From NCBI GenBank assembly GCA_032622095.1, contig CP136062.1:138776351-138840350 (forward strand): a stretch of DNA of 64,000 bases. Reading direction: 5' to 3'. Every line of letters begins with the position of its first letter. Position 1 is the first letter of the stretch. This DNA comes from Siphonodentalium dalli. Lineage: Eukaryota; Mollusca; Scaphopoda; Gadilida; Siphonodentaliidae. The notes beneath the pieces are model-generated. The model had not been told where the DNA came from. It ran no database searches and saw only the letters and a program-made list of their open reading frames with translations. The translations under genes and the position numbers were made by a program. Below, in pieces: positions 3,354 through 50,127 of the stretch.

Positions 3354-4020
3354 ATAACTATTGAAATGGTAAACTCCATATTATATATAATTGTTAACGA
3401 TCACTCTCGTGATAGATATGTGTTTTTCCCGATATATAGATACGGATGAACGATAATCCCAATAATTTTCAATGTAATGCCTCTGAACATAACATCACAC
3501 GCATGGAATTACATACTATAAGCGTGACTTATAGGTCCCATGTGGCCGGGTGCAATATCATTATTTGTTTATGTAATATATTTACGTATTGTAGATGCAC
3601 ATGTCACGTTAATAAAACATTATCACTCTCTCTCTCTGTACATAGATCATCAGATATTTGGAAAGTGACAGGAGGGTTTTCAAAACTTGAACCCAAATTT
3701 GGGGGTGGGGGTGCTGAGCTGCCTTTTGCCCAAAATTACAATATTGTTACTTCATTTTCAGGACTTCCAAATTAAATCAATGGAAGCGCTTTGTTGGGTT
3801 TGATTTTCTGGGTAGATAACAATGGCTGCATAATTAAGGAGTTACATGTCTATGTATTTCATGTTTAAATAGTAGTTATATCAGTGTATATGTGCATTGT
3901 ATGTTGTGTATTATCGGGGGTGGGACCTGGGGGTGGTCGGTGGTCCAATGAGCACGGCACCGGTCACCAAGTTGTAGGACCTCAGCTCGTGGCGACCTCT
4001 GCTGTCCGAAGAAAACATTC

Positions 4021-4390: not shown

Positions 4391-4565
4391 GAAGGTGAAG
4401 GTAGCTCATGTTTCCTCTGTTAATATTCCCATGTTATTATACTAGTAATTGGATGAATGTCGCCCGTGTTTCATCTGTCCTTCCCATGTTATTACAATTA
4501 GATGTAGGTATACCGGTAGTCCGTGTTTCCTCTTTTCCTCCCATGTAATTATCATATTATGCCTA
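4390..4565. repeat. Short tandem repeat, three units of about 50-60 bp
   Basis: Each unit has a 'CGTGTTTCCTCTGT'-like block followed by 'TTCCCATGTTATTA'. Units begin near 4398, 4452 and 4500 and differ by substitutions and small indels. Not coding. Confidence 0.5.
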
Positions 4566-16400: not shown

Positions 16401-17130
16401 AGCCTGTTCCCCCGAAAACCCGGACATTATCTGCTTATAATTTATCTTATTTTAGGTAGATAATCTGCTTAGAATCGCCTCCTTTTGATTCGATAATGTG
16501 CTGAAACTTATGAGACCGTTTTAGTCACATGATCAACTCATGATCTAACTAACGACTTTTCAGATGTACGCTCTTTAACATGTGTTTCACTTTGCTCCGG
16601 CCTACACAACGAAATAACGGATATTATTAGTTATCTTCGGCAACATCGGGGGTACATGGAGATTTAATACGATGTTGCCGGAGACAACGATTTTGTCCCC
16701 GCAACAATAACCATGTCTCCTTAATTTAAGTGTGTTTTTCATAGGTTATCCGATTAATTCACACCAATAAGAATAATTCAGTAGCTGACCTAAGGATCCG
16801 GCGTCAGGTGATGTCAAATTCGGCGTGCGAGAGCAACGTCACGATTGGTAGAAACTGCCAGTTCAAGGGACATTCGCATACCCCCCGATGTTTCACGTGC
16901 TCATATACCCCCGATGTTTGGCGCACGTTCTCTTATACCCCGCTGTCAAGGGTGACGGGGGACATGGCGATTTAAACGTGGCGTTGTAGCCAATCAGATT
17001 GCTAGTTACAACCAGATGTGGGGACAAGATCGATTATCTGCTTATTTCAAAATCAAATAGTCACATATGTACCTATTTCACATTATAGGTCGATTATGTG
17101 CGTATTTGTACGAGACTATGTTGCCAGATC
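16401..17130 (+). repeat. Foldback repeat family C, copy interrupted by an insertion
   Basis: The left part (16401-16627: GGACATTATCTGCTTATAAT, later ACGCTCTTTAACATGTGTTT) and the right part (17033-17130: TATCTGCTTATTTCA, ATTATAGGTCGATTATGTGC) are contiguous in the copy at 26045-26405. About 405 bp of unrelated sequence at 16628-17032 separates them here. Confidence 0.6.
16628..17032. mobile_element. Insertion within family C repeat
   Basis: This block is absent from other family C copies. It contains a direct repeat near each end (GTACATGGAGATTTAA near 16651 and GACATGGCGATTTAAACGTG near 16962) and two 'TACCCCCGATGTTT' units. No terminal inverted repeat was found and the class is unknown. 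Confidence 0.4.
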
Positions 17131-17409
17131 ACACGCACGTGAGAATGCCTCAACTTATGGTGTCGCCGTCAAATCAAACGCCGACGTTAATGAACCTACC
17201 GTGGATAAGAGTTCCGCATCACGGCAACATTGCAATCGCATGCACATGACCACAGCGGAGATAAGGTCTTTAGTTTCTCACCCCGAGTCCTCAGACGAAT
17301 AATTTCATCCACTCAATAGAGGATATGGTTCGCGGAAGTACCTATAGAGGGTATCTTCAGTCTAGACTATTCGCACCATCACATACACGCCCCTGGTTAA
17401 GCGAACCTG

Positions 17410-26044: not shown

Positions 26045-26405
26045 GTGACAGCCTCTCCATAATCCGCACATTATCTGCTTATAATTGAACTTGTTTTAGG
26101 TGGGTAATTTGCTTAGAATTGCATCATCTTAGTCGATAATGTGCTTAAAATGAAAGCATTTCAGTCACATTATCGTCTCATAATAAGGCGATTCTAAGCT
26201 AATGATGTGCGGACAATGACACAAATAAGCCAACTCACGACTTTTGAGTTGGACGCTCTTTAACATGTGTATTACTATGGCCCGCGCCATACAACGAAAT
26301 AACGGATATGACTCCATTATCTGCTTATTTCAGAGTCAAATAATGACAATATGTACCTATTTCACATTATAGGTCGATTATGTGCGTAGTTGCGCGAGGA
26401 TATGT
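26045..26405 (+). repeat. Foldback repeat family C, most complete copy
   Basis: It runs from CCGCACATTATCTGCTTATA to GGTCGATTATGTGCGTAG. The first 160 bp can fold on themselves: CTGCTTATAA...TTTTAGGTG...CTTAGAATTGC pairs with GGCGATTCTAAGCTAATGAT. The second half has CTTTAACATGTGT and CATTATCTGCTTATTTCA. The left terminus CGCACATTATC and the right terminus (reverse complement CGCACATAATC in other copies) are short inverted repeats. Confidence 0.6.
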
Positions 26406-26460
26406 TGCCTATGCACATACAGCTTTTCTGAGGTTATACGTTACCTTCTATTAATATATA

Positions 26461-27217: not shown

Positions 27218-27666
27218 GATCACACTGGTGTAAATATCTTTCGGAGTGACATCTAACGGATGCAGGAGGAATATACAGGAGAAAATAAAATAGACACTGG
27301 GCCCTGATTGGTCAATAGCCTTGTGTGATTTTTGCATAAAAAATCATCACACCTCTTCCATATGTGTTCCCGTAGGTAAAATAGCCATTGGCACATGAAT
27401 TAACCATTTGTAGTGAAGTTTGAATTTTGTGGTGTGGTCTAAACTATGACATTATTTTGTTAGTGCGGTTCTGACACTTGTTACCAAAACCCAAGATTTA
27501 AAGGCGAATTCCCTGCTAGATGGACATGATTTTTTGCATAAATAGTTTCCGCAAATGTCAATCTTTCAGATTTAAAGAAAATTTGGACCTAGGATTTATA
27601 TTTTAAACAGCATACGCTAATACATTTGCACTGATGCCTACGTAAAACATTTACACCAGTGTAATC
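27218..27666. mobile_element. Solitary diverged copy of module A
   Basis: It matches the 451-bp A modules of the 44.6-50.0 kb array along its whole length (GAGTGACATC, TAGACACTGGGCCCTGATTG, ACATTTACACCAGTGTAA). The ends read GATCACACTGG and CCAGTGTAATC in place of GGTTACACTGG and CCAGTGTAACC. TATA follows the right end. Many substitutions separate it from the array copies, so it is an older, independent insertion. Confidence 0.75.
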
Positions 27667-31627: not shown

Positions 31628-31849
31628 GCAATCAATAAAACTGCTAACTATAACTATATGTCATGCATGTAAATTATAATATCTGTAAAAGTTTGGTTTG
31701 TCCCTCCGCCTGAGTATTGGTTGTGGGATTTCAATGAAGTTTCAAACGGTGATTTCCTCGTGTTCTATTTCATTTGCATTTGGGTTCCGTTCTGATTATG
31801 TATCAATATGGCACTGTGTGTTATGTATACCCAACATATCCTTACGCAA

Positions 31850-32203
31850 ATTCGCACATAATCGACATAAAATGTGAAATAGATACATAATGTGATTGTT
31901 TAATTCTGAAATTATTAAGCAGATAATGGAGTCATAGCCGTTATTTCGTTTTATGGCGCGGGCCACGCTGAAAACACTCGTTAAATAGCGTACACCTGAA
32001 CAGTCGTGGGTTGGCTTATTCGTGTCACTGTCCGCACATAATCTGCTTAGAATCGCCTCATTATGAGTTGATAATGTGACTAAATTGATCTCATTTTCAG
32101 CACATTATCGACTCAAAATTAAGCGATTCTAGGCAGATTGTCGACCTAAAACAAGTTCTTTATAAGCAAATAATGTGCGGCTTATCGGGAGAACAGTCTT
32201 ATA
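31850..32203 (-). repeat. Foldback repeat family C, minus-strand copy
   Basis: On the minus strand it reads CTGTTCTCCC, CCGCACATTATTTGCTTATA, TTTTAGGTCGACAATCTGCC and so on to GTCGATTATGTGCG near 31850. It is full length compared with the copy at 26045. The centre pairs CCTCATTATGAGTTGATAAT with ATTATCGACTCAAAATTAAG. Confidence 0.6.
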
Positions 32204-36420: not shown

Positions 36421-38905
36421 TTTGTATCTGTATGTATACAATGCAGGAGCCGATTACGGCCGTAGGCGCATTGGTGGAGGAGGATGTCGGGTTGGTGGTG
36501 GCGCTGCAACATGATCAGTGTCTGGTTGTTCCCCTCGCAGAGCAGATAAAAAACCGTCAATGTCACTGATACCAACAACTGACTGTTCCGGGTGGTTCCA
36601 TTCCACAGTTGTTTTAACAAAGGAGTGTTCGTATTGTGAGCTGCTGGTACGCAGAAGGTGGAACGATTATGTGTTGTTACACACCTCCTTCTCCACCGGA
36701 TTTTGACTGACACAGTCCTCAAATTGTGTTGGCTTTATTTTCCTTGTGTCTTTCTTCTTGTTTTTTAGATAATCAGGCTTAGGAAGGGCTGGGACCAACC
36801 CCTTGACTATTTTGTGGTATTGAACCAGTCGCTGTTCTTTCCTTCTTTCTTCGAGGGGTGGGAGCTTTATCTCAGACAGCATGCCTGTGACTGATCCATC
36901 ATCTCGTCTGTATGTGTTCTTTATGAAGCGTGCGGCTCTTCTTTGCACCTTCTCTAGTCTGGTGATGTCGGTGGGGTGGTGAGGGTCCCAAAAACGACAG
37001 CACCATAGTCCATGATGGATCGTGCAAGCGCGATGTAGGCTTCTTTTTGCAGGTCTCAGGTGCATGGCGAATGTTCCTTCTGTGTAGACCCAACGCACAG
37101 CTAGCCTTCTTTGCTGTCTTCTTGATGTGTGTAGCGCAGGTTAAGTCATCTGAGAATGTGATGACAAAGTAGGGGTTTTCGGTGACTGTTTGAAGAATGT
37201 GGCCGTCCAATTGATACATGTATGGTGTTTTTTGACGGATGTTCATTAGTAGCATTTTTAGCATTGAATTTCATGCCCCATGTATCAGTCCATTCTTCAA
37301 GTGCACGGAGGTCATTATGTAGGATGTTATGGTCCTTCTGGTTCTTCACCGCCCGGTATAGCAGAGAGTCATCGGCAAACAACCGCACTTGGGAGCGGAC
37401 GCAGTTTAGTAAGTCATTTATGTGGATCAGGAATAGTAAAGGACCCAGGATATTCATTGTGGTACGCCGGATTTCACTGGGGCATATGATGAGCAGGATC
37501 CGTCGATGGTGACTCGCATCAGCCTTACCGTGAGAAAAGTCTTCAACCATGATAGTATGGGTCCGGTGATACCGTGGCTCGCGGCCTTCTGCAGGAGCTT
37601 GTTGTGAGGGACAGTATCAAAAGCTTTCGAAAAGTCAAGGAAGGCGATGTCGGTTTGAAATTTGTTGTCCAGTGATCGGAGTAGGTCCTCTGATGTTGTC
37701 ATGAGTTGGGAGGTACAGGAAAACCCTGATCGAAAGCCATGGTTGAGATTGGTGAGTACAGAGTGTTTCTCAAGATGATTCAGGAGGTGTCGGCATATGA
37801 TGTGTTCTAGGATTTTACAGCAGCCTGATGTGAGGGATATTGGTCGGTAACTTTCAGCTATGTGGACGTCACCTTTTTTGAAGAATGGAGCGATGTTTGC
37901 ATCAAGCCAGTATTGAGGTAGATCTCCATTTTTAAGTGACTGCTTAAAGGTGTAGGTAAGGCCGGGTGCTATAGACTTAGCACATTTTTGAGGACTTGGT
38001 TTGGTAGCTGGCCTGGTCCTGACGCCTTAGATGTCTTTGTGTCTCTGAGAAGTTTTTCCACGCCTTCGGTTGATATCTCGAGTTCTTCAACGTGGTCTTT
38101 TGTCCATGGTAAAGACCGATCTAAATTGACTGTTTAGTAGCTCAGATTTTTCTTTAGGGTCGTTTGTCAGTGTGCCTTTCGTCATCAGTGGAGCAAAACC
38201 GATGTTGCCTTGTTTCTTGGGTTTTAGGTAACTTCACAATGGCTTCCTGTTGTTTTTTGCCATGCCTTCTTCGATTACTTTATTTAGGTGTTTGTATTCA
38301 GCTCTTCTCATTTCTCGCCGGCATATGTTTTGATGGTGTTTATATTCAGCCCATTTCTGTTTCTTTTTAGATGATTATGGAGCCTGGCTTTCTTTTTCAG
38401 CATCCTCTTTGGCTTCCTGGTCATCCATGGAAGTTGGTTGTTGCGTCTTCTTGATGCCCTTGGTGTGTGCTCGTCTATGGTTTTCAGGATCCCATCTTTG
38501 AAGCAGTTCCAGATATCATTGGTATCCGAGGTTCCTGGTAGTAGCCTGATTTTCTCGCTTAGAATTCTAATTTTCATGTCAATCGCAGCCCAGTCTGCTT
38601 TATCGAAGACGCATCTCTTTCTTCGTGTCAGATTTGCCTGCTGGTAAGGTCGTATGTGGCAATCTGTGATAAGCATATCGTGGTCTGAGATCCCAGGTGC
38701 ATTTGTTGATGACTTTATCACAGACGTATTGTTGGTGAGTATGATGTCCAGTTGGTTATTTTCCCTCGTTGGTGATTTGTGCATTTGTGTTAGACCGAAT
38801 TCAATACAAATCTCGCCTAATGTTTTCTGGACAGTTGAAGTCTCCGCCAATGATAATGTTTTTGAAGCTCCTGTCATCTACATCCTACATCTCTTCATCT
38901 ACATC
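36418..38905 (-). pseudogene. LINE ORF2 (endonuclease-RT), Jockey/CR1-like, broken
   Basis: Reading the minus strand, a 5'-truncated endonuclease comes first (IIIGGDFNC near 38850; SDHDMLITDCHI near 38690), then a linker. The reverse transcriptase follows with the expected blocks: SKASGPGQLPNQVL (near 38015), AFLDFSKAFDTVPHNKLLQ (near 37620), GSCSSYAPVKSGVPQ (near 37480) and a catalytic FADDSLLYR (near 37370, FADD in place of the common YADD). The C-terminal block TRLEKVQRRAARFIKNTYR (near 36940) comes last. Several frameshifts separate these pieces (189, 82, 134, 121 and 143 codons open), so it is not active. The 3' end is CATACAGATACAAATACAG (about 36420-36440), a short-repeat tail inside the 70-bp array. 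Confidence 0.85.
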
Positions 38906-42756: not shown

Positions 42757-44553
42757 GGCCCGATTCGTCATCTCATGTTTAAACCTGGTCTACGTAAACA
42801 TCTAGGTTTAAACCGCCGTGAGTCAGCAAAATCCGTGGTTTAAACCCGCGACCGCAGGTCTAAGTGACGCATTCGTCATCTCTGGTTTAAGCCTGGTCTA
42901 GCCAGACCAGTGGTTTAGCAGTAATGTCTCTGTATCGTCGAGATAAATAATCGTACTTTCCTAATGCGGACCGCCTCATTTTATTGATTGCGAAAATAAA
43001 TAATTACGACAGCGACCATATTTTGATTGGAAATTTATAAGCGAGAAGCACTCACACCTATAAAGCATGTGGGGATAAGTTTTTGTCAATTTCGATATTT
43101 TGTTTGCGTTTTATAAGCTTAAACCGGCAACTAAACCATCTAAATCGGCGGTCCAGTTAAACCAGCTTTACCGAGGCTAAACTTGAGATGACGAATCCGT
43201 CTGTTCTTCATCGCGGTTTAGAATTGTCAACAATCAATCAAAGGGTGGAGCTGTAAATTATCTCGAGTGGGGGCGTGTCTATGTGGCGGCTGCCGACTGG
43301 TGTTATCATGTCACAGTTGATTCATTCGCATGCTAGCTTTGCTCAGATACGGACATGTTCCTTCAATATGATTTTTACAACTACCTTGTGTGTTCTTTTT
43401 TTTTTTGGCTTGTGGCAATCACAAATACTGGTGTTTCTACGAATTCATTTGAATGGTTCAACGTTTTAATTTTGCACCAAAACCATGCTACTCCATGACC
43501 AGATATGCTATACACATAGTTTGCAATCCTAAACTTATATTGCTATACGAGTCAAATTTTATAACATATTTTGATGTAGATCATGTCACAAAGCTCTACT
43601 CTGGCTCCGCCCATAAATTCCTATAATATTCCACCAGTTCAAAACCTGGGAACTTTTAGATTTTCTGCACGACGGAAAATTTATTACATTGAAAAAAAAG
43701 CATCGCATGCAATATGGTTGCCCACTTCAAACAGTTCAGATGCCGCTTCTGGTGTGCACACATAAGCAAATTGCTTTTACTTGACTGACCTCTTGGTCCA
43801 GTATTGACTCGATTATGGAGACTTTGTTCAGCGTGAGAGGGGCCTGCGGCCCTTCGTACGAAAGGAGCCTGCGTCAAATTTACGCACTTTTGATCATTTG
43901 AACATTTTAATTTAAAAAAATATTTAATTAAATTTAAAACAAACAGTTATTACTATATATTTTTAATATTATTTCTTGTTAGATACAACTCCTTACTCAA
44001 TTTAACAACACAATTTTTTTCATTTTAAACAAATTAAATTTTCTTATTTTCAAATCAGTTGTAGACCAGTTGCGAACAGACAAACGGACATACAGCTCCT
44101 ATACACTTTAATATATACATATATAAATGCAAATACACCAAAGTTTGTCTTTGCGGGTAAAGCATCGTGTAGAAAATCTATCACAAACAAAGTGATAAAC
44201 AGTGCGTGAAACTCGTGTTGATAGACATGCCCTTTGTCAGATGATTTAAACCCACAAAGAGATCGGATTAATGGTCCAGGCGCGATACTCATTTCTCAAT
44301 GAATAAATCCATTGAGCGTGCACGTGCTCGCGATCATTTATGGCATGTCAATAACCATTATATCGGCTTGTCTTTTTGTCCGATTGGTAAGAGGGTAGTT
44401 TGACTGCTTGCTCATATCACCGACTCGAGTTGTCAATTAGCTGGAAACTGAACGACAAAAACGCCCCCTTAGACCCGGTTTGGCTGGACCGCCAATGTAG
44501 GTTTAAACCAGGTTTAAACACGGAGGTTTAAACCTGAGATGACGAATCCGGCC
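42757..44553. mobile_element. 1.8-kb element with GGCCNGATTCGTCATCTCA ends
   Basis: The left end GGCCCGATTCGTCATCTCAT (42757) and the right end TGAGATGACGAATCCGGCC (ending 44553) are inverted copies, followed inward by GTTTAAACC-rich subterminal repeats. Inside, 42870-43199 is bounded by a second inverted pair of the same type (ATTCGTCATCTCTGGTTTAA and TTGAGATGACGAAT), so a shorter relative may be nested in the larger. No transposase ORF was recognised. The host DNA on both sides is family C repeat. Confidence 0.6.
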
Positions 44554-44570
44554 ATTATGTAGCTATTAAT

Positions 44571-45021
44571 GGTTACACTGGTGTAAATAAGGTTCCGAGT
44601 GACATCTGGCGGATGCGGGAGGAATATATAGGAGAGAATAAAATAGACACTGGGCCCTGATTGGTCAATAGCCTTGTGTGCTTTTCACATAAAAAAATCG
44701 TCACACCTCTTCCCTATGATTTCCCATAGGTAAAATAACCATTGGCACAGGAATTAACCCTTTGTAGTGAAGTTTGAATTTTTTGGTGTGGTCTAAAATA
44801 TGACTGTATTTTTTTATGCGGTTCTGACACTAGTTACGAAAACATAAGATTTAAAGGCGAATTCCCTGCTAGACAGACATGATTTTTTTGTGTAAAAAGT
44901 TTCCCAAAATGTCAATTTTTCAGATTTAAAGAAAATTTTGGACCCAACATTTATATTGCCAACACTATACGCTAAAACGTTAGCACTGAGGCCTATGGAA
45001 AACATTTACACCAGTGTAACC
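44571..45021. mobile_element. Module A, copy A1 (left end of array)
   Basis: Complete inverted repeats. The left flank is TTAAT, not the TTTA of the inner copies, because it adjoins host repeat DNA. Confidence 0.85.
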
Positions 45022-45924
45022 TAAAGGGAAAAAATAGCTTTTTATCATTTTTGATTCCTGGGAGTCACTTTAAAGCATTTTAATGCATTTTACAGAGCCT
45101 GGTCTTTCAGTCCAATGAATATCTCATGCTTGATGTGGCTATTCTTGCTGCTGATGCCTTCTTTCACTTACATCAGCCAAAAAAATAGTAAGATTTTTCA
45201 TAAAAAATGCCAATTTTTCAAGGTATTTTCTAAAAATTTCAAGGTGGTAATAGTCACATGATAATGCAAATGACCCATAACATGGGCATGTCAACGACAC
45301 ATATATCAATTGTTATAAGAACCTAATTTAACAAGTATTTTGGATTTTATAGCCAGTGATATACAGATGTATATCATAAAAGTGTGTCATTTCCACTGGT
45401 GGGTATGGTCATTTGAAGGTTAATAGCACTAAAACTTGGACACATTTAAGAAAATGCTCCAGCAATTCAAAGAGAGCATATCTTTATTCAACTAATTCAA
45501 TATACACCCACATCCAGTTATCTTGGATCACCCTTGCAGACCTGAAAATGTCATATTTTATTCTTCAATGTGCTGATAAAGTCATGCGCTTGATGCTCAG
45601 CTGATCAGATCTGGACTCAATGACCTCACATCACCAGAAGTTCTCTCATGGAAAGAATATTGAACAGTCTTCCATAGCTGATCCAAGTTTGCAACACCAG
45701 ACCCCTAAAACTGAATGAAAATGGGGCCTGAACATGACTGGTGGTGGAAAATTGTGCTTTTTTGATGAATAATTTGTTAAAGGGGGGTGGGGTTAAATTG
45801 TGTGTGATAAATAAAGAACCACAGAAGTGATATTGTTTTTGAACACATTTTTTCGATTGATGGGCAATTCTGAAGAATTGTAGGGAGTTACAATTATTCC
45901 ACGAAAAAGCGGGCTATCGCTTTA
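45022..45924 (+). repeat. Module B, copy B1 (type alpha)
   Basis: Carries the alpha variants ACAGATGTATATC, ACTGAATGAAAAT and an AAAGGGGGGTGGGG run. Private change: TTTCTAAAAATTTC where the others have TTTCAAAAAATTTC. Confidence 0.8.
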
Positions 45925-46375
45925 GGTTACACTGGTGTAAATAAGGTTCCGAGTGACATCTGGCGGATGCGGGAGGAATATATAGGAGAGAATAAAATAG
46001 ACACTGGGCTCTGATTGGTCAATAGCCTTGTGTGCTTTTCACATAAAAAAATCGTCACACCTCTTCCCTATGATTTCCCATAGGTAAAATAACCATTGGC
46101 ACAGGAATTAACCCTTTGTAGTGAAGTTTGAATTTTTTGGTGTGGTCTAAAATATGACTGTATTTTTTTATGCGGTTCTGACACTAGTTACGAAAACATA
46201 AGATTTAAAGGCGAATTCCCTGCTAGACAGACATGATTTTTTTGTGTAAAAAGTTTCCCAAAATGTCAATTTTTCAGATTTAAAGAAAATTTTGGACCCA
46301 ACATTTATATTGCCAACACTATACGCTAAAACGTTAGCACTGAGGCCTATGGAAAACATTTACACCAGTGTAACC
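45925..46375. mobile_element. Module A, copy A2
   Basis: Flanked by TTTA and TAAA (TA duplication). Private change: GGGCTCTGATTGG where the other array copies have GGGCCCTGATTGG. Confidence 0.85.
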
Positions 46376-47278
46376 TAAAGGGAAAAAATAGCTTTTTATC
46401 ATTTTTGATTCCTGGGAGTCACTTTAAAGCATTTTAATGCATTTTACAGAGCCTGGTCTTTCAGTCCAATGAATATCTCATGCTTGATGTGGCTATTCTT
46501 GCTGCTGATGCCTTCTTTCACTTACATCAGCCAAAAAAATAGTAAGATTTTTCATAAAAAATGCCAATTTTTCAAGGTATTTTCAAAAAATTTCAAGGTG
46601 GTAATAGTCACATGATAATGCAAATGACCCATAACATGGGCATGTCAACGACACATATATCAATTGTTATAAGAACCTAATTTAACAAGTATTTTGGATT
46701 TTATAGCCAGTGATATACAGATATATATCATAAAAGTGTGTCATTTCCACTGGTGGGTATGGTCATTTGAAGGTTAATAGCACTAAAACTTGGACACATT
46801 TAAGAAAATGCTCCAGCAATTCAAAGAGAGCATATCTTTATTCAACTAATTCAATATACACCCACATCCAGTTATCTTGGATCACCCTTGCAGACCTGAA
46901 AATGTCATATTTTATTCTTCAATGTGCTGATAAAGTCATGCGCTTGATGCTCAGCTGATCAGATCTGGACTCAATGACCTCACATCACCAGAAGTTCTCT
47001 CATGGAAAGAATATTGAACAGTCTTCCATAGCTGATCCAAGTTTGCAACACCAGACCCCTAAAACTGAGTGAAAATGGGGCCTGAACATGACTGGTGGTG
47101 GAAAATTGTGCTTTTTTGATGAATAATTTGTTAAAGGGGATGGGGTTAAATTGTGTGTGATAAATAAAGAACCACAGAAGTGATATTGTTTTTGAACACA
47201 TTTTTTCGATTGATGGGCAATTCTGAAGAATTGTAGGGAGTTACAATTATTCCACGAAAAAGCGGGCTATCGCTTTAG
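46376..47278 (+). repeat. Module B, copy B2 (type beta)
   Basis: Carries the beta variants ACAGATATATATC, ACTGAGTGAAAAT and AAAGGGGATGGGG, shared with B4. Confidence 0.8.
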
Positions 47279-47728
47279 GTTACACTGGTGTAAATAAGGT
47301 TCCGAGTGACATCTGGCGGATGCGGGAGGAATATATAGGAGAGAATAAAATAGACACTGGGCCCTGATTGGTCAATAGCCTTGTGTGCTTTTCACATAAA
47401 AAAATCGTCACACCTCTTCCCTATGATTTCCCATAGGTAAAATAACCATTGGCACAGGAATTAACCCTTTGTAGTGAAGTTTGAATTTTTTGGTGTGGTC
47501 TAAAATATGACTGTATTTTTTTATGCGGTTCTGACACTAGTTACGAAAACATAAGATTTAAAGGCGAATTCCCTGCTAGACAGACATGATTTTTTTGTGT
47601 AAAAAGTTTCCCAAAATGTCAATTTTTCAGATTTAAAGAAAATTTTGGACCCAACATTTATATTGCCAACACTATACGCTAAAACGTTAGCACTGAGGCC
47701 TATGGAAAACATTTACACCAGTGTAACC
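47279..47728. mobile_element. Module A, copy A3
   Basis: Same inverted ends and TA flanks as A2, with a one-base indel relative to the others. Confidence 0.85.
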
Positions 47729-48630
47729 TAAAGGGAAAAAATAGCTTTTTATCATTTTTGATTCCTGGGAGTCACTTTAAAGCATTTTAATGCATTTTAC
47801 AGAGCCTGGTCTTTCAGTCCAATGAATATCTCATGCTTGATGTGGCTATTCTTGCTGCTGATGCCTTCTTTCACTTACATCAGCCAAAAAAATAGTAAGA
47901 TTTTTCATAAAAAATGCCAATTTTTCAAGGTATTTTCAAAAAATTTCAAGGTGGTAATAGTCACATGATAATGCAAATGACCCATAACATGGGCATGTCA
48001 ACGACACATATATCAATTGTTATAAGAACCTAATTTAACAAGTATTTTGGATTTTATAGCCAGTGATATACAGATGTATATCATAAAAGTGTGTCATTTC
48101 CACTGGTGGGTATGGTCATTTGAAGGTTAATAGCACTAAAACTTGGACACATTTAAGAAAATGCTCCAGCAATTCAAAGAGAGCATATCTTTATTCAACT
48201 AATTCAATATACACCCACATCCAGTTATCTTGGATCACCCTTGCAGACCTGAAAATGTCATATTTTATTCTTCAATGTGCTGATAAAGTCATGCGCTTGA
48301 TGCTCAGCTGATCAGATCTGGACTCAATGACCTCACATCACCAGAAGTTCTCTCATGGAAAGAATATTGAACAGTCTTCCATAGCTGATCCAAGTTTGCA
48401 ACACCAGACCCCTAAAACTGAATGAAAATGGGGCCTGAACATGACTGGTGGTGGAAAATTGTGCTTTTTTGATGAATAATTTGTTAAAGGGGGTGGGGTT
48501 AAATTGTGTGTGATAAATAAAGAACCACAGAAGTGATATTGTTTTTGAACACATTTTTTCGATTGATGGGCAATTCTGAAGAATTGTAGGGAGTTACAAT
48601 TATTCCACGAAAAAGCGGGCTATCGCTTTA
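47729..48630 (+). repeat. Module B, copy B3 (type alpha)
   Basis: Has the alpha variants of B1 (ACAGATGTATATC, ACTGAATGAAAAT). It ends CGCTTTA and runs straight into B4 without an A module, sharing the TA at 48629-48630. Confidence 0.8.
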
Positions 48631-49530
48631 AAGGGAAAAAATAGCTTTTTATCATTTTTGATTCCTGGGAGTCACTTTAAAGCATTTTAATGCATTTTAC
48701 AGAGCCTGGTCTTTCAGTCCAATGAATATCTCATGCTTGATGTGGCTATTCTTGCTGCTGATGCCTTCTTTCACTTACATCAGCCAAAGAAATAGTAAGA
48801 TTTTTCATAAAAAATGCCAATTTTTCAAGGTATTTTCAAAAAATTTCAAGGTGGTAATAGTCACATGATAATGCAAATGACCCATAACATGGGCATGTCA
48901 ACGACACATATATCAATTGTTATAAGAACCTAATTTAACAAGTATTTTGGATTTTATAGCCAGTGATATACAGATATATATCATAAAAGTGTGTCATTTC
49001 CACTGGTGGGTATGGTCATTTGAAGGTTAATAGCACTAAAACTTGGACACATTTAAGAAAATGCTCCAGCAATTCAAAGAGAGCATATCTTTATTCAACT
49101 AATTCAATATACACCCACATCCAGTTATCTTGGATCACCCTTGCAGACCTGAAAATGTCATATTTTATTCTTCAATGTGCTGATAAAGTCATGCGCTTGG
49201 TGCTCAGCTGATCAGATCTGGACTCAATGACCTCACATCACCAGAAGTTCTCTCATGGAAAGAATATTCAACAGTCTTCCATAGCTGATCCAAGTTTGCA
49301 ACACCAGACCCCTAAAACTGAGTGAAAATGGGGCCTGAACATGACTGGTGGTGGAAAATTGTGCTTTTTTGATGAATAATTTGTTAAAGGGGATGGGGTT
49401 AAATTGTGTGTGATAAATAAAGAACCACAGAAGTGATATTGTTTTTGAACACATGTTTTCGATTGATGGGCAATTCTGAAGAATTGTAGGGAGTTACAAT
49501 TATTCCACGAAAAAGCGGGCTATCGCTTTA
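48629..49530 (+). repeat. Module B, copy B4 (type beta)
   Basis: Has the beta variants of B2 (ACAGATATATATC, ACTGAGTGAAAAT, AAAGGGGATGGGG), with private changes such as CAGCCAAAGAAATAG. Confidence 0.8.
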
Positions 49531-49981
49531 GGTTACACTGGTGTAAATAAGGTTCCGAGTGACATCTGGCGGATGCGGGAGGAATATATAGGAGAGAATA
49601 AAATAGACACTGGGCCCTGATTGGTCAATAGCCTTGTGTGCTTTTCACATAAAAAAATCGTCACACCTCTTGCCTATGATTTCCCATAGGTAAAATAACC
49701 ATTGGCACAGGAATTAACCCTTTGTAGTGAAGTTTGAATTTTTTGGTGTGGTCTAAAATATGACTGTATTTTTTTATGCGGTTCTGACACTAGTTACGAA
49801 AACATAAGATTTAAAGGCGAATTCCCTGCTAGACAGACATGATTTTTTTGTGTAAAAAGTTTCCCAAAATGTCAATTTTTCAGATTTAAAGAAAATTTTG
49901 GACCCAACATTTATATTGCCAACACTATACGCTAAAACGTTAGCACTGAGGCCTATGGAAAACATTTACACCAGTGTAACC
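49531..49981. mobile_element. Module A, copy A4 (right end of array)
   Basis: Complete inverted ends. The right flank is TAATCATTATAGG, host repeat sequence. Private change CCTCTTGCCTATG. Confidence 0.85.
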
Positions 49982-49985
49982 TAAT

Positions 49986-50127
49986 CATTATAGGTCGATT
50001 ATGTGCGTATTTGTGCGAGGATGTGTTGATCACACAGACCAACAAGTCAGGCCAACCTCATCGTCGTGCGTCAACATATATCCTCGCGCAAATACGACAT
50101 AATCGACCTATAATGTGAAATGGGTAT
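49986..50127. repeat. Palindrome from family C right end
   Basis: CATTATAGGTCGATTATGTG then CGTATTTGTGCGAGGATGTG (left) is mirrored by CCTCGCGCAAATACG then ACATAATCGACCTATAATGTG (right). The left arm is also the tail of the family C copy that the A/B array interrupts. Confidence 0.65.

Follow-up and report, generated by a model that had tools for sequence, protein, structure and literature searches.

A tandem block in the Siphonodentalium dalli genome is probably a multimer of a non-autonomous KolobokP transposon

Analysis of a 64,000-nucleotide stretch of the scaphopod mollusc Siphonodentalium dalli (GenBank assembly GCA_032622095.1, contig CP136062.1, forward-strand positions 138,776,351 to 138,840,350; hereafter the window) confirmed a block at window positions 44571-49981 in which two repeated modules, A and B, follow one another in the order A-B-A-B-A-B-B-A. 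Judged by sequence features, the block is a non-autonomous member of KolobokP, a family of DNA transposons described by Kojima and Bao in 2022 (PMC9587614), in which A corresponds to the long terminal direct repeat (LTDR) and B to the internal region (INT). The block is very likely a multimer of the form (LTDR-INT)n-LTDR, with one LTDR missing, that was mobilised and grew as proposed below. An earlier note on this DNA, which was made from the letters alone, knew of no described family with this organisation, but KolobokP is such a family.

In the published account, KolobokP LTDRs are ~450 or 660 bp long, each with its own 11-18-bp inverted ends and 5′-RR and YY-3′ termini, and the INT has two genes on opposite strands, one for a DDD/E transposase and one for a His-Me nuclease similar to I-PpoI (PMC9587614). 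Target duplications of 3-5 bp surround the whole unit, the solo LTDR, and the multimer; multimers take the form (LTDR-INT)n-LTDR, and their INT-INT joints almost always carry a 3-4-bp micro-deletion (PMC9587614).

Within the window, the four A copies (LTDR 1, 44571-45021; LTDR 2, 45925-46375; LTDR 3, 47278-47728; and LTDR 4, the right end of the element, 49531-49981) are 451 bp long, start with GG, end with CC, carry perfect 18-bp inverted ends (GGTTACACTGGTGTAAAT and ATTTACACCAGTGTAACC), and are 99.8-100% identical to the first copy. The four B copies of ~902 bp (INT 1, 45022-45924; INT 2, 46376-47277; INT 3, 47729-48630; and INT 4, 48629-49530) have TAAA...TTTA ends, read as a TAAAGGG start and a CGCTTTA end in INT 1, and are 99.0-100% identical to the first copy. 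INT 1 and INT 3 are of one type, while INT 2 and INT 4 represent the second B type of the array. The LTDR is absent between INT 3 and INT 4, whose TTTA and TAAA ends have one TA in common and form the junction TTTAAA at 48627-48632 (joint sequence CGCTTTAAAGGG). All of these features lie on the plus strand, and the longest open reading frame (ORF) listed for any of the INT copies is 73 aa. The strandless tetramer TAAT flanks the block on the left (44567-44570) and on the right (49982-49985) as a target site duplication, an arrangement that recurs with other 4-mers. The module order, coordinates, near identity, inverted ends, and TAAT flanks reported in the earlier note thus hold, as seen in the copy positions and identities.

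The modules were searched separately in the whole assembly (2.23 Gb, nine contigs). The exact 26-bp left end of A has 2,781 copies (1,593 + 1,188) while its reversed control has 0, which places the abundance of A far above chance. An exact 30-mer of B is found at 4,550 places, the B-to-LTDR border at 3,643, and the B-B joint TTTAAA, with at most one mismatch, at 417. Among the top matches listed, A is present on all nine contigs. The first 100 A ends listed on contig C1 define 52 clusters in its first 136 Mb, with one listed end in 25 clusters, two in 15, and three to six in 12, and the spacing between listed ends is exactly 1,353 bp in 32 of 48 steps. Extrapolation from these 100 ends puts the number of arrays genome-wide in the hundreds. 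Solo A copies are also present, as in published KolobokP. Near-identical tandem copies are difficult to assemble, and arrays of this kind could be assembly artefacts; given copies on all nine contigs, INT variants that belong to single arrays, and intact target duplications, we consider this explanation extremely unlikely.

Ends were read for 30 clusters and then for 19, the other three of the 52 being read whole, and more arrays and elements with the A2 repeat described below were added later. Identical 4-bp duplications flank 47 of the 54 elements with both ends read (45 of 52 in the typed table, plus L092 with tata and L134 with tgta). By type, they are found at 13 of 14 solo LTDRs, at 29 of 34 non-autonomous elements with at least two LTDRs (11 of 15 with at least three), and at three of four full-length elements, whereas shuffling right flanks among left flanks yields 2.5 matches on average, and never more than 9, out of 52. 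The commonest target is T-N-N-A, with T first in 39 of 45 and A last in 31 of 45. In this count, the halves a08 and a09 are one element, as are a00 and a01 (the 81-kb array described below); clusters with an end that is broken, truncated, or too diverged (a03, a06, a17, a26, a27, and a41), with one end not read (a31 and a32), with the same flanks as a28 (a29), or with one or both ends outside the piece (L093, L094, L123, L125/L126, L129-L132, and L144) were left out. Short arrays mostly have a complete A at their start and end, and at many unrelated loci an array bounded by A on either side is enclosed by identical 4-bp duplications, in agreement with the earlier suggestion that the outer A modules act as the ends of one mobile unit.

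These duplications bear on a reading in which B is an ordinary satellite monomer, A is a miniature inverted-repeat transposable element (MITE) inserted at TA sites of B, and the array spread as satellite DNA. The B-B junctions, which read CTTTAAAGG, would suit such an origin, as would the placement of A between TTTA and TAAA, which mimics a TA duplication, and the presence of long satellite-like blocks. This reading is nevertheless very unlikely: the duplications made by A around whole elements and solo copies are 4 bp, not 2 bp, in length, on which ground a MITE that duplicates TA within a B satellite was rejected, and X, the internal region of the full-length relatives described below, has no detectable similarity to B yet has the same TAAA...TTTA ends beside its LTDRs. 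Read towards the LTDR, either end of B and either end of X has CTTTA directly before GGTTACAC. The TA of the inner borders therefore belongs to a CTTTA/GGTTACAC border that recurs at the INT ends and is not a target duplication; outer left flanks end in CTTTA, by eye, in only three of ~60 cases (L096, L097, and L109). The inner borders do read TA, as first reported, but this TA belongs to the INT ends, and the TA sites are not where A inserted.

Nor does B always occur alone as a satellite. Out of 100 B places listed on C1, 61 lie inside one 81-kb A-B block, 37 of the 39 elsewhere are no more than 400 bp from a B-to-LTDR border, and the other two are A-B-A. The 81-kb array (C1:445299-526469) contains 61 B units, whose places span C1:446324 to 525691, and has A at both ends, but its two flanks differ (ttta and ttga). 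Among the first 100 B-B joints listed, further blocks of satellite size appear as long runs at C1:237.98-238.08 Mb, C1:275.64-275.88 Mb, and C3:113.29-113.51 Mb. Separately, one A-ended array (C1:16700775-16712423, aata on both sides) contains an insertion of ~8.5 kb inside B, at around position 492-497. Three old copies on C2 (L062-L064) are >99% alike over the 613 bases compared, left flank included; one of the three old C2 copies, L124 (C2:614600-619500), is a pair-ended A-B-A with ~79% identity to A and B and tgta on both sides.

A first search with variants of the terminal inverted repeat (36 places, of which 20 were read) yielded diverged A copies only. A pattern of the 18-bp end with other following bases matched 775 + 704 places, and among the first 100 listed were same-strand pairs of ends 4.2-4.5 kb apart. 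Four loci (L127, L128, L140, and L141) have the structure A2-X-A2, with a full length of ~4.93-4.94 kb. The A2 repeat is 451-452 bp long; where it can be aligned with A, the two are ~70% alike, and their 18-bp ends are identical. X spans 4.04 kb in L128. The inner borders CTTTA/TAAAG are common to all four, except for one L141 border that reads CTTTG; L141 is without part of its left LTDR and without the end of X. Duplications of 4 bp flank L127 (ttat), L140 (atta), and L141 (tcta), while L128 has none.

The X region encodes a predicted Mutator-like transposase (PF20700, E 1.7e-47) and, on the opposite strand, a predicted nuclease (PF05551, E 2.9e-13). The nuclease aligns with I-PpoI in the PDB over the active site (E 5e-4) and keeps I-PpoI residues S97, H98, H110, E114, and N119 (numbering from PMC9587614). 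Neither protein has a match in NCBIfam, and the transposase has none in the PDB; its translation contains, by eye, the Kolobok-type C/DxxH motif as DSAH. Long direct repeats surround an internal region both in the window (451-bp A and 902-bp B) and in the relatives (A2 and X), the LTDRs have their own inverted ends with RR/YY termini (18 bp perfect, GG...CC), the target duplications fall within 3-5 bp, and solo LTDRs accompany multimers, including arrays of 3-6 LTDRs. On the coding side, the PF20700 match points to a Kolobok-type DDD/E transposase, and the PF05551 match and the alignment point to an I-PpoI-like nuclease in the full-length member. The KolobokP name follows from these structural features of the window block and these coding features of its relatives.

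The direct repeats at the ends, the solo copies, the 4-bp duplications, and the sharing of repeats within arrays are also what would be expected if A were a long terminal repeat (LTR) and the unit a miniature LTR retrotransposon resembling terminal-repeat retrotransposons in miniature (TRIMs; comparison in PMC9587614). However, A has perfect 18-bp inverted ends and GG...CC rather than TG...CA termini, no primer-binding site or polypurine tract is visible by eye at the B borders, and the full-length partner encodes a transposase and a nuclease. This explanation is almost certainly wrong, and an LTR or TRIM reading of the A2-X-A2 pairs was itself rejected by their coding content.

Variation among units indicates how the KolobokP arrays formed. 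In a first set of 14 arrays read whole or in part together with the window (51 B and 54 A units), mean differences within arrays are 0.18% for B and 0.15% for A, against 2.7% and 2.5% between arrays, the between-array means being raised by two diverged arrays (L081 and L093). A B variant that is present in all sampled units and private to the array was found in 14 of 18 arrays (73 B units), including one such variant in the window, and is lacking in L082, L085, L093, and L142. The nearest neighbour lies in the same array for 51 of 63 B units in a tree from which L131 and L129, as pieces of L142 and L143, were left out. Old arrays are not homogenised, and their two LTDRs differ by 11.7% in L123 and by 2.2% in a02. 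Together with the private B variants, this shows that the INTs of most arrays descend from a single INT that was present at about the time of insertion; for LTDRs, the same holds for only part of the arrays.

Growth then proceeded stepwise. Inner units share variants that are absent from outer units (LTDRs 2 and 3 of L085 and of L082, and INTs 1 and 2 of L083), and array formation in one burst was dropped on this ground. In the window, the alternating types of INT 1/3 and INT 2/4 indicate that a dimer was duplicated and that one LTDR was lost at 48629. The tandem amplification proposed in the earlier note is part of the array history.

In the proposed mechanism, transposase from full-length relatives (A2-X-A2) would act in trans on the 18-bp ends of A, and the unit between the outer left and outer right LTDR ends would be taken and inserted with a 4-bp target duplication, while solo LTDRs would move via the same ends. 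Arrays would mostly arise from one LTDR-INT unit, with a single-unit stage that may have been a circle or a product of LTDR-to-LTDR gene conversion, and would then extend by stepwise tandem duplication, possibly through unequal crossover. The window array shows duplication of a dimer with B type x followed by B type y, and loss of the LTDR between the last two INTs left TTTAAA.

Several observations weigh against this account. No full-length copy with an A-type LTDR was found in searches by end patterns only. Seven of the 54 elements have no identical 4-bp duplication (a16, a21, a23, a33, a40, L128, and the 81-kb array), and five clusters are broken or truncated at an end (a06, a17, a26, a27, and a41). 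A query for the empty site matched across the joint of both flanks at C2:66481756, in surroundings that differ. The INT-INT loss is usually 2 bp, compared with 3-4 bp in published KolobokP (PMC9587614). For 12 of 63 B units another array is as close or closer, namely all units of L082, L085, and L142 and one each of L084 and L143. A fixed private LTDR variant is present in only 11 of 29 arrays (115 A copies), or nine of 26 when the count is limited to arrays whose two outermost LTDRs were sampled, which weakens the case for a single-LTDR stage; the window has none, its LTDR 1 being identical to the LTDRs of arrays a22 and a50.

The scarcity of array-private LTDR variants, the variants shared by inner units only, and the dimer repeat of the window would also fit a monomer that inserts and grows in place by unequal crossover, and by LTDR-to-LTDR conversion in cases of similar LTDRs, without a circular or single-LTDR stage. 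We give this route a little less than an even chance. The unhomogenised old arrays L123 and a02 imply that such conversion was confined to a short time, and replacement of whole LTDRs (A versus A2) on a near-identical B is hard to achieve by conversion within an array.

Such replacement is suggested by five loci at which B is combined with A2 (L092, L130, L133, L142, and L143; L129 is a piece of L143 and L131 is a piece of L142). The B copies of these arrays differ from those of the A array L082 by as little as 0.22%, and they do not form one clade in a FastTree phylogeny, where L092 groups with the A-type L090 and the others with L082/L085. Whole LTDRs thus seem to have been changed around near-unchanged INTs, and more than once on this single tree. 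A and A2 share 23 bp at each border, comprising the 18-bp end and CTTTA. As a separate observation, an A end at C1:65372023, preceded by a partial B, is separated by 2.3 kb from a C1:65374350 end whose next two bases are those of A2; both are on the minus strand and may belong to a mixed A2/A element.

At INT-INT loss junctions, TTTAAA (417 places) predominates over CTTTATAAAGG (three) and CTTTAAAAGG (two), with CTTTAGGG in L093 and CTTAAAGGG in L094; deletions of 0, 1, 3, and 4 bp are seen besides the usual 2 bp. The I-PpoI enzyme has the consensus site CTCTCTTAAGGTAGC (PMC6294500) and leaves a 4-base 3′ TTAA overhang (PMC9587614), and the LTDR-INT border resembles the I-PpoI site CTCTCTTAA/GGTAGC. 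The INT-LTDR border CTTTAGGTTACAC is a candidate nuclease cut site, and the KolobokP nuclease may cut at the LTDR-INT border. In its specific form, in which the homing-type nuclease of the element cuts at CTTTA^GGTTACAC and leaves 4-nt 3′ TTTA overhangs, the idea is tentative and on balance doubtful. Two such overhangs joined via TA would be expected to give TTTAAA, TA-repaired excision by the transposase would give the same product, and exchange within the 23-bp shared border would mimic a nuclease cut there. If the idea is true, cuts at the borders would drop LTDRs and rejoin INTs via the overhang TA, giving the dominant CTTTAAAGG junction, and would start the LTDR recombination that builds arrays, while intact INT cassettes would change LTDR frames, giving near-identical B in both A and the ~70%-alike A2. 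In that case KolobokP would be a modular transposon of a cut-and-ligate type, able to convert itself into satellite DNA.

Other features of the window were also recorded. The left flank of the block (44451-44570) is the end of another dispersed repeat, with 38 of the 41 matches listed (3,046 candidates) falling outside the window and nearly all covering the left flank only; the left flank does lie within another repeat, as had been noted. To the right of the array, positions 49986-50115 form an imperfect palindromic repeat with arms 78.5% alike, further pieces of which are found at 17055-17134, 26338-26407, and 31832-31902. An old solo LTDR of the KolobokP family at 27218-27666 is 87.7% identical to A and has, by eye, the flanks TAAA and TATA. 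ORF pieces on the minus strand at 36667-38877 resemble remains of a non-LTR reverse transcriptase (FADDSLLY motif by eye), and no RNA family in Rfam matched the window at gathering score.

Together these results describe a DNA transposon with paired ends that scatters tandem arrays over a 2.2-Gb genome, some reaching satellite size, and that shows how a transposon can turn directly into satellite DNA. The published question of how LTDR likeness is kept up and how multimers form becomes testable here, both through the many young arrays marked by INT variants of their own and through the INT family that occurs on two LTDR types. The recurring INT border supplies a specific candidate site at which the nuclease may cut.

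Arrays of TRIM retrotransposons (PMC6934838, PMC9587614) likewise have direct terminal repeats common to tandem units, along with solo repeats, but the window element has long inverted ends and no LTR termini, and its partner encodes a transposase instead of a reverse transcriptase. The Helentron-borne satellite-like arrays of oyster (PMC7492417) are similar in that a transposon scatters short tandem arrays in the genome; those elements belong to a different class, whereas here the array itself is the transposon, ended by LTDRs and flanked by target duplications. As in bacterial composite transposons, two end elements in direct orientation mobilise the intervening DNA (PMC9587614), although here the end elements are gene-free and the enzyme is encoded in the internal part of a full-length relative.

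The closest likeness is to KolobokP itself, for which a literature search, with most subscription papers beyond its scope, found no later report. The LTDRs of ~450 bp with inverted ends of up to 18 bp and RR/YY termini, the INT between direct LTDRs, the solo LTDRs, the multimers with shared LTDRs, the small deletions at INT-INT joints, the 3-5-bp target duplications, and the opposite strands of the transposase and the I-PpoI-like His-Me nuclease are all alike, although the full-length elements are larger here (~4.93-4.94 kb) than in the oyster KolobokP families (4.0-4.7 kb; PMC9587614). The copy scale differs as well, with thousands of copies here and one array of 61 INTs. This 81-kb array, the array-private B variants, and the occurrence of one near-identical B on two LTDR types go beyond KolobokP as described in the published report.

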